From a virus: DNA of 62,606 bases. This document shows positions 29,846-38,461 of this stretch, in pieces. The position numbers and the translations under genes are program-made. How positions within the stretch are numbered: the first letter of the stretch is position 1; every line of letters starts with the position of its first letter. The DNA lies in IMG/VR virus record IMGVR_UViG_3300035703_000095, positions 1-62,606 of that record. The stretch is one strand, 5' to 3'. The notes under the pieces are model-generated. The model was given only the letters and a program-made list of their open reading frames with translations. It did not search any database and was not told the origin of the DNA.

Positions 29846-32800
29846 ATGGGTCTCTCTCGTTTAGACAATTTTCTGAAGTCGGTTAGAGGAACTATTCTCT
29901 ATGTAAACCCAAACGATTTAGATGCTACGGATAGTATAGAGAATCAAGGAAATTCTCTGACTCGTCCATTTAAAACTATCCAGAGAGCTCTTATTGAGTC
30001 TGCGAGATTCTCATATCAAAGAGGTCTTAATAATGACAGATTTGGTAAGACAACAATTCTTGTCTATCCCGGAGATCATATTGTAGACAATAGACCTGGA
30101 TGGATTCCTGATGGATCTAATAATTTTAGACTAAGGGATGGAACTACTTCAAATGATTTTAGTCAGTTTGATTTAACTTCAAACTTTGATCTATCAACAC
30201 CAGAAAACGAACTCTACAAATTAAACAGTATCCATGGTGGAGTTATCATTCCAAGAGGTACTTCAATTGTTGGTCTAGATCTAAGAAAGACTAAAATCAG
30301 ACCAAAGTATGTACCAAATCCAACGAATGATAATATTGAAAGATCTGCAATTTTCAGAGTAACTGGTGGTTGCTACTTCTGGCAGTTCTCAATGTTTGAT
30401 GCTGATCCAAATGGTCAGTGCTTTATTGATTATACATCTAACCTATTTGTTCCCAATTTCTCTCACCATAAGTTAACTTGCTTTGAATATGCAGATGGTG
30501 TAAATGGTGTAAATATCAACGATACTTTCCAAACATATTCTACAGATCGTACTGATCTGGATATGTATTATGAAAAAGTTGGTCTTGCATACGGTCAATC
30601 TTCTGGTCGTCCAATCGAACCTGATTATCCATCTGCTGCACTTGATATTGAACCAAAAATTGATGAATATCGCATTGTAGGATCTACAGGAGAGGCTGTA
30701 GGAATTACCAGCATTAGATCTGGAGATGGAATCACTTCCAATGCAACAGTTACTGTAACTACAGCAACTCCAGTACCAGGATTAGATGTAGATACCCCAT
30801 TCAGAATTCAAGGTATTACTGCAGTTGGTTATGATGGTCAGTTTGTTGTTACTGAAAAAATAAGTGATACTCAAGTTTCATATAGAGTCCAAAATGCACC
30901 AGCAAATCCTCTCCCATCCGTAACTGGAGCAACTCTATCACTATCTTCAGATACTGTAACTTCAGCATCTCCTTACATTTTCAACATCTCTCTACGTTCA
31001 GTATATGGAATGTGTGGAGTTCTTGCTGATGGTTTTAAAGCATCTGGATTTAAATCCATGGTTGTTGCACAATTCACTGGAATTGGACTTCAAAAGGATG
31101 ATAATGCATTTGTAATTTTCAATGAGAATAGTGGCGTATATGATGATGCTTCTGTTCCTGGAAATGAAACAATTAGCAATAATTCCAGAGCTGTTTTCAA
31201 ACCAGAATACAGAAACTTCCATATTAAAGTAACAAATGATGCATTTGTTCAGAACGTTTCCATCTTTGCTATTGGATATGCAGAGCACTTTGTAACAGAA
31301 AATGGTGGTGATATGTCTATCACCAACTCCAACTCAAACTTTGGTGCAAAAGCTCTTGTTGCATCTGGATTTAGAAGTGCAGCATTCCCTCAGGATGATA
31401 TTGGTTATATTACTCATATTATTCCACCAAAAGAACTTTCACGTACAGAAACTGCGATTGAATTCAATTCAATTGATGTTCTAAAAACATCATCAGTTAC
31501 TGGTGTTGGATCAACAGGTAATCTCTACCTATACAATGAAACAAATGCTGACGTTCCACCAGAAAATGTTATTGAAGGTTATAGAATAGGTGCCAGACAA
31601 AATGATACTCTGGGAGTATTAGTTTCTTATGCAGGATCTGTTACTGAATACAGATCAAGAATTGTTATGCCAGGATCTCAATCAAGCAGTGAGAAGAGAT
31701 TCCAGGTTAATAGAAGCAGTGTAGGTATTAATAGTATAACAAATAACACCCTTACACTTAGAGAAAATCATACACTCTTTAATGGCGAATCTATTCGCAT
31801 TTTAAGTGATACAGGACAACTTCCAGATGGTATTATTCCAAATACAGTTTATTATGCAATTACAAGTGGAAACCCAAGCAGCGGTTTAACCACTACGACT
31901 GAAATCAAGATTGCAAAAACTCAGAATGATGCGGTAAATGCAACTGAACTAAACATTAATAACAAAGGTGGAGTCTTAAGTATTGTAAGTAGAGTCTCTG
32001 ATAAGAACTCTGGTGATGTTGGCCACCCAATTCAATATGATGAAACTGCAGGGCAGTGGTATATTAAAGTTTCTACTGCGGCTACAGATAATACAATCTA
32101 TCCAACTATTGTTGGTCTTGGTTCAACAGCACTTGGATCCGCAACACCAAGAACATACATTACCAGACTTCAAGACAATAGAAATGCTATCGATACTCTG
32201 TACAGAGTTAGATATGTTCTACCTTCAAATTCTGGTATTAATGCAAGACCTCCTAGTGATGGATTCATTGTACAAGAATCTAACTCATCTATTGGAATTA
32301 CAACTGCTGAAGTTCAAACTTACTTTGGTTCAGGGTCTCTATCAAATGTCAATGAGCAAAGAAACTTCAGACTTATTGCAGGTGCAACTTGGGACGGAAC
32401 TAACGCAAGTATCATAACTGAACTTCCACATAATCTTTCTGTTGGGTCTCAAGTTGAGTTATTCAACATAAAGAGTACTTTAAATACGACTGGTGCAAGA
32501 AATAGTGGATTCAATAGAGTTTATAATGTTGTTGGAATTAGCAGTTCAAAGCAATTTACTGTAGGACTTTCAACAAATCCAGGAACCTTTACAAATGATA
32601 CTTCATCTAGAGGTACTTCACTTCCATATTTCGAAAGAAAGAGATACAAAAACACATATTATGTCTACAGAACACAAGAAGCTCAAAAATATGTTTCGGG
32701 TGAGCAGGATGGTATCTATTACCTGACTATTCTGAATGCTTCAAACTCTCCAACGATTGCACCATTCACAGAAGAAAAATTCTCTCAACCAGTTAAAGAA

Positions 32801-35698
32801 CTTTATCCACAAATCAATCGTGATAATCCAAAATCAGATCCAGATGCATCTAGATCTTTTGCATCATCACAACTAATTGGTGAAGTTTTTGTTAACGATG
32901 TTCAGAATAGTATCACAAAAGAAACTATCAATAAAGTCCTAATTGATACTAACATTGGAGTTGGCCTTACTGATGTAGTTTCTGTAGGAGCAACTCATAC
33001 TATTCATACTTCGATTGAGCATGGTCTGAATAGACTTGTAAAAGTCAGTATTGCTAATAGCGGTATTGGATATGGATCTGGTACTCCATCAACCATTTAC
33101 AATGCCAACCTTGTTGGATTTGCAGGATCCGTTACTGGATCTAATGCTACTGCAAAGATTTCCACCAATGCGTTAGGTAATATCACTGACATTAAGATTA
33201 TGGATGGTGGTAGCGCATATGGAATTGGAAATACTCTTGCTATCGTTGGAGTAGCAACAACAGCAGGATATTCTCAAGCAGTTGTAACTGTAACTGGTAT
33301 CTATAACAACGTTGGTGATGTTGTTAGAGTTTCCGGAGTTTCCTCTTCATCTTATCAAGAATACAATAATCTCTATAGAATAACTGAGGTTTCAATTGGC
33401 AATCCAACTCAATTTAAAGTAACCTCCACAAATCCATTCCAATCTGCACCTTCAACTGGTGTAGGTGCGACTCAAACACAAAATGCATTTTTCTCTATTA
33501 CAGGAGAATCTATTCTAGTTGATACTATTTCTTATAATAATTTAACTGGAATTGCAAACATTACGACCATTAATCGTCATGGTCTAAAAGTTGACAGTAA
33601 AGTAAAATTTGTCGGAGCTGATCAGGGAATTTATAGTGGCGATTTTGTAGTCACTGAGGTTCAAGGACTTACATCATTCTCTGTTAATATTGGAATTAGC
33701 ACAAACTCACCTACTGCAACTGGCACAATCTATGCATATCGTGGAGGAGTTACCTCAAATGGTGGAGTCATTACTGTAGATAATGAAAATCTAAACGGAA
33801 GAATGATTCCTGCGTATGCAGGCATTACAACAACACTATCTGCTTTAATTCCAGACCCAATCATCGATGAAATTAATCTACAAGGAATTTCAAATCTAGA
33901 TGTTAATATTGGTGATTATTTCATGATTGATGATGAGATTGTAAGAGTTAAAACGACAACATCATCAAGTAGTATAACTGGGCCATCAAATCCCGTTTAT
34001 GTTTTCCGTGGTGTTCTTGGAACAAAGGCAGTTAATCATGCAATTAACTCCGTTGTAAGAAAAATAAAAGTTAATCCAATTGAGCTAAGAAGACACTCCA
34101 TCTCTCGTGCATCGGGACATACATTTGAATATGTTGGTTTTGGCCCTGGTAACTACTCAACTGCATTCCCAGATAAGCAGGATCGTCAAATTTCTGCACA
34201 AGAAGAACTTCTTGCACAGTCAACAAGAAAAGATGGAGGAATTAACTTCTACACAGGTATGAATGACAAGGGCATTTCATACTCTGGCAATAAAAAGTTA
34301 AGTACAGTCACTGGCCAGGAAGAAATTTTTGATACTCCAATTCAAACTGTAACTGGTGAAGATATTGGAAATCTTCCAGGATTAAATGTTATCAACCCTA
34401 TTGAAGGTGTTTTCAATAGATTGATTCGTGTAGAAGGTGGATCTGACGGTAAGGCAACATCAGAATTTTCTGGACCAGTAATCTTCAGTAATAAGATTAC
34501 TTCAACATCGAATAAAGGAATTGAATCAAATTCGATTCTGCTTCAGGGTGATGCAACAGTTTCCAGAAAGTATACCGTTGGTATTGCCACACCATCACTA
34601 GCAGGAAACCCAGGAGATGTTGTTTACTATGCAAACCCATCATCAGGTGGTTATGTTGGTTGGATTTATACATTAGATAATGAGTGGTATCGCTTTGGAA
34701 ATATCAGTATCTCCAAAAATAGCAATATTGGCATCTTTGATCAGATTGGTATTTCTACAAGCACTCCAGGACAAGCAAAACTTCTTGTTGGTTCAGGAAC
34801 AACTCAGGTTAGTGTTGATGGAAATGGTGGAGTTGGAATTGGTACGACTGCAAGTTCTTATAAACTGAATGTTAATGGAAACACAAATATTGCAGGAACT
34901 TGCTATGCAGTCTCCTACATAGGAGATGGTAATGGACTTACAAACTTAAATGCAAGTTCAACTGGATGGACAGTTATTGGTGGTGGAATTTATAATACGA
35001 GTTTAAATAATGTTGGAATTGGCACATCTGTCCCAAGATTCTCACTTGAAATTGGATCTATTGGTGTTGGTGGTACTTCACTTTGGGTAAATAATAGTGC
35101 AAGATTTGATGGATTCCTAAGTGCTAATGATGTAACGGTGACAGGAATTCTTACTGCATCATCTTTTGATCTATCAGGTGGAACTGGTAGAATTAATGCA
35201 GGAATTGTTACGACTTCAACTCTCGTAGTTGGAGCATCTGGAGCAACTATTACAACAAATGGTTTAAATGTTGGAGTTGGAACAACCGTACCTAGAGCAA
35301 AACTTGATGTTGAAGGTACGATAAGAATTAAGACTCTCCGTGAGGCTGTAGAATCACTTTCTATTAGTGGAAATGCAGTTTCAGTTGATCTCTCTAGAGC
35401 ACAAAACTTCAACTTAACCCTAAATGATAATGTAAGTTACTTCACTATTACAAATACTCCATCTGAAGCAAGTTCATTTACTATTAGAATAACTCAAGAT
35501 GGAACTGGTGGAAGAGTAGTTGACATCGATGACTTCAAAACTTCCGGAGGTGCTTCAATTCCCGTTTATTGGCCAGGTGGTGGTGTCATCCCAATCATTA
35601 CACCAACAGCAAATCGAACTGACATTTATTCGTTCAAGACTTTTGACGGTGGATCTAATTGGTATGGAACTGTTATCGGACAAAACTTTACAAATTAA
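29846..35698 (+). CDS. Very large fibre or baseplate-attached structural protein
   Basis: With 1950 residues it is the largest protein in the window. The N-terminus has the pectin-lyase-type opening TILYVNPNDLDATDS and PFKTIQRALIESARFS, pointing to a right-handed beta-helix. The middle is made of repeated beta modules (GDGITSNATVTV; SGIGYGSGTPS). The C-terminal 350 residues are fibre-like with YIGDGNGLTNLN, and the last 100 residues match the tip domain shared by three other fibres here (ending FKTFDGGSNWYGTV). Probably a long tail fibre or wedge-attached protein. Confidence 0.7.
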   Translation: MGLSRLDNFLKSVRGTILYVNPNDLDATDSIENQGNSLTRPFKTIQRALIESARFSYQRGLNNDRFGKTTILVYPGDHIVDNRPGWIPDGSNNFRLRDGTTSNDFSQFDLTSNFDLSTPENELYKLNSIHGGVIIPRGTSIVGLDLRKTKIRPKYVPNPTNDNIERSAIFRVTGGCYFWQFSMFDADPNGQCFIDYTSNLFVPNFSHHKLTCFEYADGVNGVNINDTFQTYSTDRTDLDMYYEKVGLAYGQSSGRPIEPDYPSAALDIEPKIDEYRIVGSTGEAVGITSIRSGDGITSNATVTVTTATPVPGLDVDTPFRIQGITAVGYDGQFVVTEKISDTQVSYRVQNAPANPLPSVTGATLSLSSDTVTSASPYIFNISLRSVYGMCGVLADGFKASGFKSMVVAQFTGIGLQKDDNAFVIFNENSGVYDDASVPGNETISNNSRAVFKPEYRNFHIKVTNDAFVQNVSIFAIGYAEHFVTENGGDMSITNSNSNFGAKALVASGFRSAAFPQDDIGYITHIIPPKELSRTETAIEFNSIDVLKTSSVTGVGSTGNLYLYNETNADVPPENVIEGYRIGARQNDTLGVLVSYAGSVTEYRSRIVMPGSQSSSEKRFQVNRSSVGINSITNNTLTLRENHTLFNGESIRILSDTGQLPDGIIPNTVYYAITSGNPSSGLTTTTEIKIAKTQNDAVNATELNINNKGGVLSIVSRVSDKNSGDVGHPIQYDETAGQWYIKVSTAATDNTIYPTIVGLGSTALGSATPRTYITRLQDNRNAIDTLYRVRYVLPSNSGINARPPSDGFIVQESNSSIGITTAEVQTYFGSGSLSNVNEQRNFRLIAGATWDGTNASIITELPHNLSVGSQVELFNIKSTLNTTGARNSGFNRVYNVVGISSSKQFTVGLSTNPGTFTNDTSSRGTSLPYFERKRYKNTYYVYRTQEAQKYVSGEQDGIYYLTILNASNSPTIAPFTEEKFSQPVKELYPQINRDNPKSDPDASRSFASSQLIGEVFVNDVQNSITKETINKVLIDTNIGVGLTDVVSVGATHTIHTSIEHGLNRLVKVSIANSGIGYGSGTPSTIYNANLVGFAGSVTGSNATAKISTNALGNITDIKIMDGGSAYGIGNTLAIVGVATTAGYSQAVVTVTGIYNNVGDVVRVSGVSSSSYQEYNNLYRITEVSIGNPTQFKVTSTNPFQSAPSTGVGATQTQNAFFSITGESILVDTISYNNLTGIANITTINRHGLKVDSKVKFVGADQGIYSGDFVVTEVQGLTSFSVNIGISTNSPTATGTIYAYRGGVTSNGGVITVDNENLNGRMIPAYAGITTTLSALIPDPIIDEINLQGISNLDVNIGDYFMIDDEIVRVKTTTSSSSITGPSNPVYVFRGVLGTKAVNHAINSVVRKIKVNPIELRRHSISRASGHTFEYVGFGPGNYSTAFPDKQDRQISAQEELLAQSTRKDGGINFYTGMNDKGISYSGNKKLSTVTGQEEIFDTPIQTVTGEDIGNLPGLNVINPIEGVFNRLIRVEGGSDGKATSEFSGPVIFSNKITSTSNKGIESNSILLQGDATVSRKYTVGIATPSLAGNPGDVVYYANPSSGGYVGWIYTLDNEWYRFGNISISKNSNIGIFDQIGISTSTPGQAKLLVGSGTTQVSVDGNGGVGIGTTASSYKLNVNGNTNIAGTCYAVSYIGDGNGLTNLNASSTGWTVIGGGIYNTSLNNVGIGTSVPRFSLEIGSIGVGGTSLWVNNSARFDGFLSANDVTVTGILTASSFDLSGGTGRINAGIVTTSTLVVGASGATITTNGLNVGVGTTVPRAKLDVEGTIRIKTLREAVESLSISGNAVSVDLSRAQNFNLTLNDNVSYFTITNTPSEASSFTIRITQDGTGGRVVDIDDFKTSGGASIPVYWPGGGVIPIITPTANRTDIYSFKTFDGGSNWYGTVIGQNFTN

Positions 35699-35704
35699 TC
35701 AAAA

Positions 35705-38461
35705 ATGATTAATAAACAAACTACTCTGGATCTCAATGGTCCTATTCTATCTTTCATACAACAACCACAATCGGCAAATGTAGATCACAACGGATCCACA
35801 ACTTTTGTTGGAATTGCAACGGCATCATTTCCCACACAAACTCCAGCAAATACTGCAACAAATACGGGAACATTAAGATACAGATGGTATGCTGAAGGGC
35901 ATGGAGCTCTAAGTGACGGAAGTTTTCGTGGTGCAACAATCAGTGGAACTGGAACAACAACTCTTACAGTTTCTAATGCGGTTAGTCCAACCACCAGTAG
36001 AACTAATTTTTATCTTACTGTAGATTATGAACCATCTGCATATGCACAACCTGCTGGTTCCGAAGTTAATCAATCCACATCAAGATCAACGGGAAATGCA
36101 ATCAATGATGTATTAAATTCAAATATTGCTACATTACTAGTTTATCCATATATTACAATCACCTCTCAACCAGAATCCACTACTGCTGCAATTGGTAGTA
36201 ACGTTTCATTGTCGGTAGACGCAACTCTATCTGATCCAAGTTTTGGTGACCTTTCATATCAGTGGCAATACATAAATTCGCCAGCTCAAGATTTTGGTGA
36301 GGGTGCAAATCAAGGGCCAGATTCTGCATTTACTGTTCAAGGAGCTAGAAGAAATGCATTATTCTTGGTTTCAAGAGCAGGAGGACCAACTACAACGAAT
36401 TTAAGAGCGGCTGTCAGTAACCCAAATGCAACGACAGTATTTTCAAATACAGTATCCTTATCTACAATTAACCCAAGAAGTATCATAATATTTGAGGGAT
36501 TTGATCCACAGAATAACTATGTAAGAAGACAAGTAAATTTAGAGAATGGTGCAAGTTTTCAATTAACTGATAGTACATTTGGTCCAAATTTTAATATTGT
36601 TACCTTCTATGCTCCAGAAAATGATTTAGATATTGATGTAGAAATTCGCGCAAGCAAAGGTAACGATAATAGTGGATATTCAGGTGGTGCGGGAGGATAT
36701 TCAAGAGTTAGATTTACAATGAGAAGAAATGATGAATACACTGCATTAGGAATATCAAATAATAGTGGTGTTTTCCTCTACAGGGGATCTTCATTAATTG
36801 CTGCAGTTGGAAAAGGTGGCGATGCCGGTACTGGAGGAAATGGCGGAGCTGGTGGTGGCGTAAGTAATGCAGGTGCAAATGGATCGGGAAGAAATGCAGG
36901 AACTGGTGGATCTTATGTTGCAAGTGGCCAATTAACAACAACTGGAATTTTTGGTTCAAACTCCTCAGTTTTAGCACAAAATATTCTTCCTGGAGATAGT
37001 AAGGCAGCAATACCTTCTGGGGGAAGAGCAATATCATGCACAAAAGGTTCTTACTGGACTAAACAAGGTAAAACTCCATGTGAAATCAACGGAGTAACGC
37101 AATTTTATAACACTACAGAATCTTTAATATCAAGAAGTGCATTCATTAACAGAGGATTTAAACCAGGATATACTATAACAGCGACTGAAGGCAGAGCTAC
37201 TTCTGTTGGAGGTAATGGAGGCAATGGTGCCGTAGGTGGAAGTGGTGGTGGTGAAGGTGGAGGCGGTGGTGGTAGTGGATATATTGACAGTTCTATTACA
37301 CAATTAGCATCGACTCAGGGCGAAAATAATTCACAAAAATCCACAATAAACTTTAAGATTTACGTTCCACCCCCACCACCACCCCCACCACCAACGTATT
37401 CATATGTATCAGAATCTTCACCTGTAGTATCTCAATCAAGTTGCCCAGATCCCGATACTTTAATTTTAATGTCTGATGGATCTCAAAAACGTGCGGGGGA
37501 TCTTAAAGTTGGTGATTATGTTAGAACTAAACACGAAAGTACTTTACAATGGGGCGATTACCCAGTTCTAGATGTAAAAATTGTAGAAGATGATAAAGTA
37601 AATCTTATTTTTGATGAGACCAATCTTATCTGTTCATATAGCCATAAATTATATGTTGATGGTCAAGGTTGGAAACGTGTTAGTGATATGTCAATAGGTG
37701 ACATCGTTTCTGGATTTGTTTTAAAAGAGATTGTAGAACATGAAAGAGGCGAAGTTGTTGGCATTGAAATTGATAGGGCTCATGCATATATCTCAAACAA
37801 ATTATTATCTCACAACTTAGTCGGTAAAGGTAGTTGCCCAGATCCAGAAATGCCAATCCTGATGGCAGATGGTTCAGAAAAGAAAGCAGGTGATATTGAA
37901 ATTGGTGATGAAATTTTAACCCAACATGAACACACTCTTGAATGGGGAACTTATAAGGTTATCCAGAAGAGTATTCTTCATGAGAAGAAACTAAAAATGA
38001 TTTTTGCTTCAACTGAAGATGATTCATACAAAGAAATCATTTGTTCAGATTCTCATCAATTTTATTCAAATGATTCTGGATGGATAAGTTCCTTAGAAAT
38101 GAATATAGGTGATACTGTTGAAAACTATAAATTAATTTCATCTGAAAAAATTGAAAGTGGTCAGGTGGTTCAACTTGCTGTTGATGAGGCACACACATAC
38201 GTTTGCTGTGGATTGTTATCTCATAACAAACTTGTTGCACCAGTATATCAAGGTGTTGCGGGAGGTTTTAATCAAAATGCAGGATATAGCCAAAGTCAAA
38301 TATATGGTGGAGGAACTAGTGCTGTTCTAGGAGCAAGTGCGGTTGATCGTGCCGTAAGTGGCGGATACACTCTTTCTTCAATTCAAGCATGGGTCAATTC
38401 TACAGGTGCAACCGTGGGCCCAGCAGCACAAGCTCTTGGTATTAGACCTGCAAGAAGATAA
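35705..38461 (+). CDS. Fibre protein with Ig-like domains and two tandem Hint domains
   Basis: A 918-residue protein. Two Ig-like parts (SFIQQPQSANVDHNGS; TITSQPESTTAAIGSN) precede a Gly-rich beta region and a nine-proline hinge near residue 560. Two Hint domains follow. Hint-1 runs from Cys580 (CPDPDTLILMSDGS) to His703-Asn704; Hint-2 from Cys711 (CPDPEMPILMADGS) to His840-Asn841. Both have the mid-domain S-x-S/D-S-H block and end LLSHN. The residues after HN are Leu and Lys, not splice nucleophiles, so they resemble bacterial intein-like domains that cleave or ligate. A 77-residue tail follows. Confidence 0.82.
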   Translation: MINKQTTLDLNGPILSFIQQPQSANVDHNGSTTFVGIATASFPTQTPANTATNTGTLRYRWYAEGHGALSDGSFRGATISGTGTTTLTVSNAVSPTTSRTNFYLTVDYEPSAYAQPAGSEVNQSTSRSTGNAINDVLNSNIATLLVYPYITITSQPESTTAAIGSNVSLSVDATLSDPSFGDLSYQWQYINSPAQDFGEGANQGPDSAFTVQGARRNALFLVSRAGGPTTTNLRAAVSNPNATTVFSNTVSLSTINPRSIIIFEGFDPQNNYVRRQVNLENGASFQLTDSTFGPNFNIVTFYAPENDLDIDVEIRASKGNDNSGYSGGAGGYSRVRFTMRRNDEYTALGISNNSGVFLYRGSSLIAAVGKGGDAGTGGNGGAGGGVSNAGANGSGRNAGTGGSYVASGQLTTTGIFGSNSSVLAQNILPGDSKAAIPSGGRAISCTKGSYWTKQGKTPCEINGVTQFYNTTESLISRSAFINRGFKPGYTITATEGRATSVGGNGGNGAVGGSGGGEGGGGGGSGYIDSSITQLASTQGENNSQKSTINFKIYVPPPPPPPPPTYSYVSESSPVVSQSSCPDPDTLILMSDGSQKRAGDLKVGDYVRTKHESTLQWGDYPVLDVKIVEDDKVNLIFDETNLICSYSHKLYVDGQGWKRVSDMSIGDIVSGFVLKEIVEHERGEVVGIEIDRAHAYISNKLLSHNLVGKGSCPDPEMPILMADGSEKKAGDIEIGDEILTQHEHTLEWGTYKVIQKSILHEKKLKMIFASTEDDSYKEIICSDSHQFYSNDSGWISSLEMNIGDTVENYKLISSEKIESGQVVQLAVDEAHTYVCCGLLSHNKLVAPVYQGVAGGFNQNAGYSQSQIYGGGTSAVLGASAVDRAVSGGYTLSSIQAWVNSTGATVGPAAQALGIRPARR

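Follow-up and report, generated by a model that had tools for sequence, protein, structure and literature searches.

The stretch of viral DNA considered here (IMG/VR record IMGVR_UViG_3300035703_000095, positions 1 to 62,606; all 62,606 nucleotides (nt) of it are referred to as the window) encodes an adhesin that ends in two tandem Hint domains, set among T4-like baseplate and fibre genes. Both copies begin with CPDP and end with LLSHN, followed by Leu705 after copy 1 and by Lys842 after copy 2, and they share 45 per cent identity; the window holds exactly two domains of this Hint type. A sequence-only reading had proposed the pair, and the intact catalytic residues, the boundaries C580–N704 and C711–N841, the six-residue linker LVGKGS and the 77-residue tail that it described are all seen in the open reading frame (ORF). 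The span it gave, 37442–38229, starts correctly and runs 2 nt too far, as the N841 codon ends at 38227 (Table 1).

C580–N704 and C711–N841 are confirmed as Hint domains with every splicing-type catalytic residue. The PT-HINT profile (PF07591) matches the whole protein at 31.1 bits, above its gathering score of 27.7, and copy 2 alone at 29.1 bits; copy 1 alone gives Pfam matches only under the curated scores, and a Hom_end_hint match lies right at its threshold. Compared with the PDB, a profile of the family described below places the BIL2 domain of Tetrahymena first (4e-12), with many inteins also matched. An AlphaFold2 model of copy 2 and its flanks, built on a 54-row alignment, reached a predicted local distance difference test score (pLDDT) of 94.2. 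The four best Foldseek matches to this model are chains of BIL2 (query TM-score, TMq, 0.81), followed by gp41-1 and Ssp DnaB, and a bacterial intein-like (BIL) domain from Clostridium appears at rank 11; by VIA-align, Ssp DnaB (Z 20.1) and BIL2 (19.8) are tied. The fold and blocks A, B, F and G that define the Hint superfamily are all found.

Table 1. Features of the adhesin gene and its upstream neighbour (positions in the window; aa, amino acids).
Feature	Position	Strand	Evidence
Adhesin/fibre protein with Hint array, 918 aa	35705..38461	+	ORF; phrog_24848 over aa 209-552
Upstream tail fibre protein, 1950 aa, syntenic partner	29846..35698	+	phrog_529 tail fiber, 1466 bits
Glycine-rich adhesin domain	36467..37366	+	Isolate homologues stop at the domain's end; AlphaFold2 pLDDT 95
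Linker PPPPPPPPP-TYSYVSESSPVVSQSS	37367..37441	+	Missing in Hint-less relatives
Hint domain 1, C580 to N704, +1 = Leu	37442..37816	+	SxxH, block F His and HN present
Inter-Hint linker LVGKGS, aa 705-710, Lys at +4	37817..37834	+	
Hint domain 2, C711 to N841, +1 = Lys842	37835..38227	+	Pfam, AlphaFold2 model, fold matches
77-residue C-terminal tail	38228..38458	+	No detectable relatives

The window copies belong to a widespread family. A search for it recovered 99 non-redundant members from virion proteins of phages, mainly fused to the C-termini of adhesins and lambda-type tail proteins I and J. The first cysteine (C1) is kept in 95 of the 99 and the terminal HN in 97; of the four copies without C1, three represent allelic versions of a single decayed freshwater copy and the fourth is truncated by a contig end. 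The block B motif [ST]xxH, with an invariant His, is present in 54/54 aligned rows, and all 83 pattern matches encode the signature T-x-H-E-x-T-x-x-W-G. Natural relatives lacking the Cys or Asn, which the sequence-only reading had named as evidence against itself, are confined to two decayed copies in four-Hint freshwater proteins, all other complete copies keeping both. A search of the viral contigs with copy 1 alone returned no relatives, its query patterns being too specific.

Outside the adhesins, the domain stands at the C-terminus of the lambda-type host-specificity protein J (gpJ) and of tail assembly protein I (gpI; phrog_32), which occur together in Hint-bearing form in myxobacterial prophages; the subfamily is also present in Sphingomonas prophages and in Sphingopyxis. 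The Hint-less gpI of isolates stops about five codons past the homologous region, so the Hint-bearing form is extended by a Gly-rich linker, a Hint and a short tail. All complete gpI relatives from the myxobacterial genomes sampled carry the Hint. These tip-type copies are often followed by just 4–14 residues after HN. Several marine carriers match no family, and a virion role for these is putative.

Several further carriers were noted. The virion protein family VrlC/DUF4815 has the Hint at opposite ends in two phages, close to the N-terminus in one and close to the C-terminus in the other (L097:4480-4869, L111:5001-5378), a second, unrelated marine protein has two complete Hints in series (L061:111-1067), and a tail-tip protein of the human faecal phage scaffold MT835519 (L019:4001-4348) has one at its very end, with a stop ∼9 residues later. 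In one myxobacterial prophage tail operon (L054:3667-10036) gpI and gpJ both terminate in Hints and a Prok-JAB gene lies directly upstream of gpI. Myxophage gpI shows a weak Lambda_tail_I match upstream of the Hint, a family that has been published as ubiquitin-like, and the operon bears an apparent parallel to the ciliate ubiquitin-like/intein loci. A JAB isopeptidase partner was rejected as a candidate and is not used as evidence here: the gene lies beside gpI/gpJ in three myxophages, is absent from three other records and is usual in lambda-type tails.

In the best reading the protein comes from a T4-like marine phage and is its receptor-binding adhesin, complete in itself, with the Hints fused behind it. 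The order of fibre gene and adhesin gene is common to the window, P-TIM68, S-SM2 and freshwater contigs (L006), and the adhesins of the isolates end (FEIGV*, LRVVT*) exactly where the window reads FKIYV-PPPPPPPPP and continues into the Hints. Because these syntenic cyanophage adhesins end at the start of the poly-proline linker, the Hint array is an add-on. An exact scan with the adhesin sequence found no relative, whereas an alignment-based scan recovered 57 homologues in viral contigs, of which 48 are without a Hint and nine, all freshwater, carry Hints, each with four in tandem; most of the Hint-less homologues terminate about 30 residues past the last Gly4 run. The window and freshwater proteins fall in different starred clades of the adhesin tree, which forces at least two changes and suggests that gain happened separately or that loss was frequent. 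The closest solved folds to the adhesin domain itself are the glycine-rich TG domains of the animal receptors ALK/LTK (Z 14.1, 187 residues, 2.7 Å), far above the match to phage fibre structures (Pam3 fibre, Bxb1 tip; Z only about 6).

The sequence-only reading had called two copies in series unusual, which they are, yet the arrangement is real and extends to four copies in the freshwater relatives. In the Hint tree, for which branch support is by the Shimodaira–Hasegawa-like approximate likelihood ratio test (SH-aLRT) only, window copy 1 clusters with L097 and the freshwater set of four, and window copy 2 joins L003. A recent tandem duplication as the origin of the window pair is rejected on this placement in different sub-branches, and the four freshwater Hints appear, on the same tree, to be a lineage-specific expansion. 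Between two freshwater alleles the ratio of non-synonymous to synonymous substitution rates (dN/dS) is 0.10, 0.30, 0.06 and 0.09 for Hints 1–4 and 0.25 for the adhesin, figures that are approximate given the few substitutions per domain, and all four Hints are under purifying selection. Freshwater copy 1 (L006:5026-6819) keeps C1 but lacks the block F His and ends in LLSRT in place of HN, and copy 2 of the same protein has lost C1 and kept HN. Only the outer reaction centres of the pair remain, an arrangement that would let the two leave as a unit; the pattern is one of four possible loss patterns and may be coincidence.

That two such copies have each lost one centre (HN and C1, respectively) and are still constrained is what might be expected if the Hint fold were a catalytically idle spacer or cap that helps the adhesin tip to fold or trimerise. 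We consider this improbable, since C1, [ST]xxH and HN are preserved exactly in nearly every other copy.

The residues that follow the cut site are informative. Across 98 copies the +1 residue is never Cys or Ser and is Thr in two, which bears out the expectation of the sequence-only reading that normal splicing is unlikely. Instead, 93/98 copies have a lysine one or two places after HN (+1 or +2), as do 21/22 after clustering at 50 per cent identity, while no comparable preference is seen from +3 to +12 or from -1 to -8; the Hint tree requires 10 or more switches between the states of this lysine (+1, +2 or neither). Among PT-HINT toxin-type controls from Myxococcota, Lys at +1/+2 is found in 0/18 (Fisher's exact test, 6e-17 for all copies and 2e-10 for clusters, p-values that are too small because of relatedness). 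Window copy 2 follows the rule (K842), and in the tip-type copies Lys is the sole feature common to the 4–14 aa tails.

It is very improbable in this light that the domains are ordinary inteins that join their flanks. Their fold, their blocks A, B, F and G and their profile matches to inteins would all suit such a role, but there is neither a Cys or Ser at +1 nor an intein-less allele with contiguous exteins, as relatives stop before the linker and nothing homologous follows it. A canonical (class 1) intein was rejected on the +1 residue and on architecture, there being no insertion in a conserved site. Relatives of the 77-residue tail (38228-38458) were sought in phage records and viral contigs and none was found, and the release of this piece, which had also been suggested, is unlikely as a general purpose because the tip-type C-terminal piece is only 4–14 residues long. 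Toxin release was rejected, there being no cargo either here (77 aa without relatives) or in the tip-type relatives (4–14 aa).

A serious rival, though an unlikely one, is that the Hint is a selfish or neutral module which attaches terminally to virion genes and then removes itself, with catalysis kept only to avoid harm to its carrier. The patchy distribution (9/57 fibre homologues, with gains that may have been separate), the unrelated carriers, including either end of VrlC, and the lack of a homing endonuclease are consistent with such a hitch-hiker. The carriers are nonetheless, where nameable, all virion or probable virion proteins; the conserved lysine, the half-decayed copies retained under purifying selection and the presence of a Hint on all complete gpI relatives in the sampled myxobacterial genomes also argue against it.

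The chemistry of inteins is an N-to-S acyl shift at C1 followed by Asn cyclisation at HN. The explanation that we favour, with a probability of roughly 0.6, is that the domains are autocatalytic modules resembling type A BIL domains that cut the adhesin C-terminus and may ligate lysine; we infer their activity, the order of steps and the purpose. A thioester would form at the first Cys of each Hint (C580, C711), and cleavage after the last Asn (N704, N841) would proceed through cyclisation, with canonical splicing not expected given no Cys, Ser or Thr at +1. The adhesin C-terminus would thereby be freed from the Hint array during assembly. The thioester could be resolved by hydrolysis, a plain maturation cleavage, or through attack by an amine; the obvious candidate for the latter is the Lys conserved downstream, which would give an isopeptide bond within or between chains.

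There is reason to favour self-cleavage because BIL domains without a +1 nucleophile mostly cleave (PMC7664689) and amines take part in some splicing of the BIL type: BIL2 has been reported to form an isopeptide bond with lysine (PMC8616854), and ligation by a BIL domain without a nucleophilic side chain has been reported as well (Aranko 2013, as cited in PMC7664689). Autoprocessing is further favoured because the catalytic set is kept, the fold fits active splicing and BIL domains, and relatives are under purifying selection, and because the domain is a C-terminal add-on in adhesin, gpI and gpJ alike with a lysine at +1/+2 specific to the family. Four observations weigh against it. Window copy 1, which is followed by LVGK, lacks the +1/+2 Lys; the block F His is replaced by Arg or Tyr in 8/54 rows; two of the four freshwater copies are retained though each lost one reaction centre, so that a structural role is possible; and the reported acceptor lysine of BIL2 lies outside +1/+2, in the ubiquitin-like domain next to it (in the construct, the mutated Asn is followed by MQ).

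Autoprocessing can be stated in a more specific form, in which the amine of the +1/+2 Lys, or one in the tail of a neighbouring chain, resolves the C1 thioester while Asn cyclisation frees the Hint, leaving isopeptide-linked tail tips that are covalently cross-linked or capped. We hold this to be possible, if on balance doubtful. The amide link suggested by the sequence-only reading gains indirect support because Lys is conserved at +1/+2 and retained while its position switches, next to unconserved positions +3 to +12; BIL2 offers a precedent, and the short tips share nothing else. The lysine may instead be a structural or kinetic need for C-terminal cleavage, and the BIL2 acceptor and window copy 1 count against this form in particular. 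Also speculative, and on balance unlikely, is a genetically portable, enzyme-free conjugation module: a Hint placed C-terminally on adhesins and tail-tip proteins would convert the end of its own protein into a thioester and pass it on to a Lys amine. The outcome would be cross-links between tail tips or a covalent bond from the adhesin to some other molecule, possibly one on the host surface.

Of the systems already described, BIL2 of the Tetrahymena BUBL1 locus (PDB 6Y75, 6TMM) is the nearest, as the best profile and Foldseek match and in its C1, block B His, C-terminal HN, lack of Cys/Ser/Thr at +1 and reported lysine isopeptide product (PMC8616854). It differs in its 17 per cent identity, its ciliate origin between ubiquitin-like domains, the absence of Lys at +1/+2 and in not being a virion protein; the window protein, for its part, has a glycine-rich adhesin upstream and no flanking ubiquitin-like domains. 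Type A BIL domains (e.g. 2LWY, Clostridium thermocellum) likewise end in HN with no +1 nucleophile, as both window copies do, and occur in variable proteins (PMC7765530, PMC7664689), but they have been described in bacterial proteins, and the Lys rule, the T-x-H-E-x-T-x-x-W-G signature and the C-terminal tail-tip position are particular to the phage family. The PT-HINT domains of polymorphic toxins share the Pfam profile passed by copy 2 and the whole protein, but no toxin domain follows the Hint here and their controls lack the lysine. Hedgehog Hog domains share the fold (1AT0, Z 17.1) and a Hint C-terminal to its cargo, whereas the phage copies have a terminal HN and no sterol-recognition region was identified in them. 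Phage terminase inteins (Corynebacterium phages, phiCbK group) are 20–33 per cent identical and, in contrast, lie inside the terminase large subunit and not in adhesins. A literature search, with most subscription journals outside its scope, returned intein and toxin Hints only and did not find the subfamily, its carriers, tandem arrays or the lysine rule; the fold and chemistry are already known, and the subfamily and its context are apparently undescribed.

Most of what is known of Hint domains in phages concerns selfish inteins, which sit in genes for replication and packaging. A Hint subfamily on the receptor-binding and tail-tip proteins of unrelated phages, together with a lysine conserved just beyond the cut site, points to chemical self-maturation or covalent cross-linking of attachment devices. 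It would be a prokaryotic parallel to the intein-based ubiquitination system of ciliates and might be a source of small new domains for autoprocessing or ligation. Phages may, on this evidence, complete or cross-link their attachment proteins by chemistry of their own.
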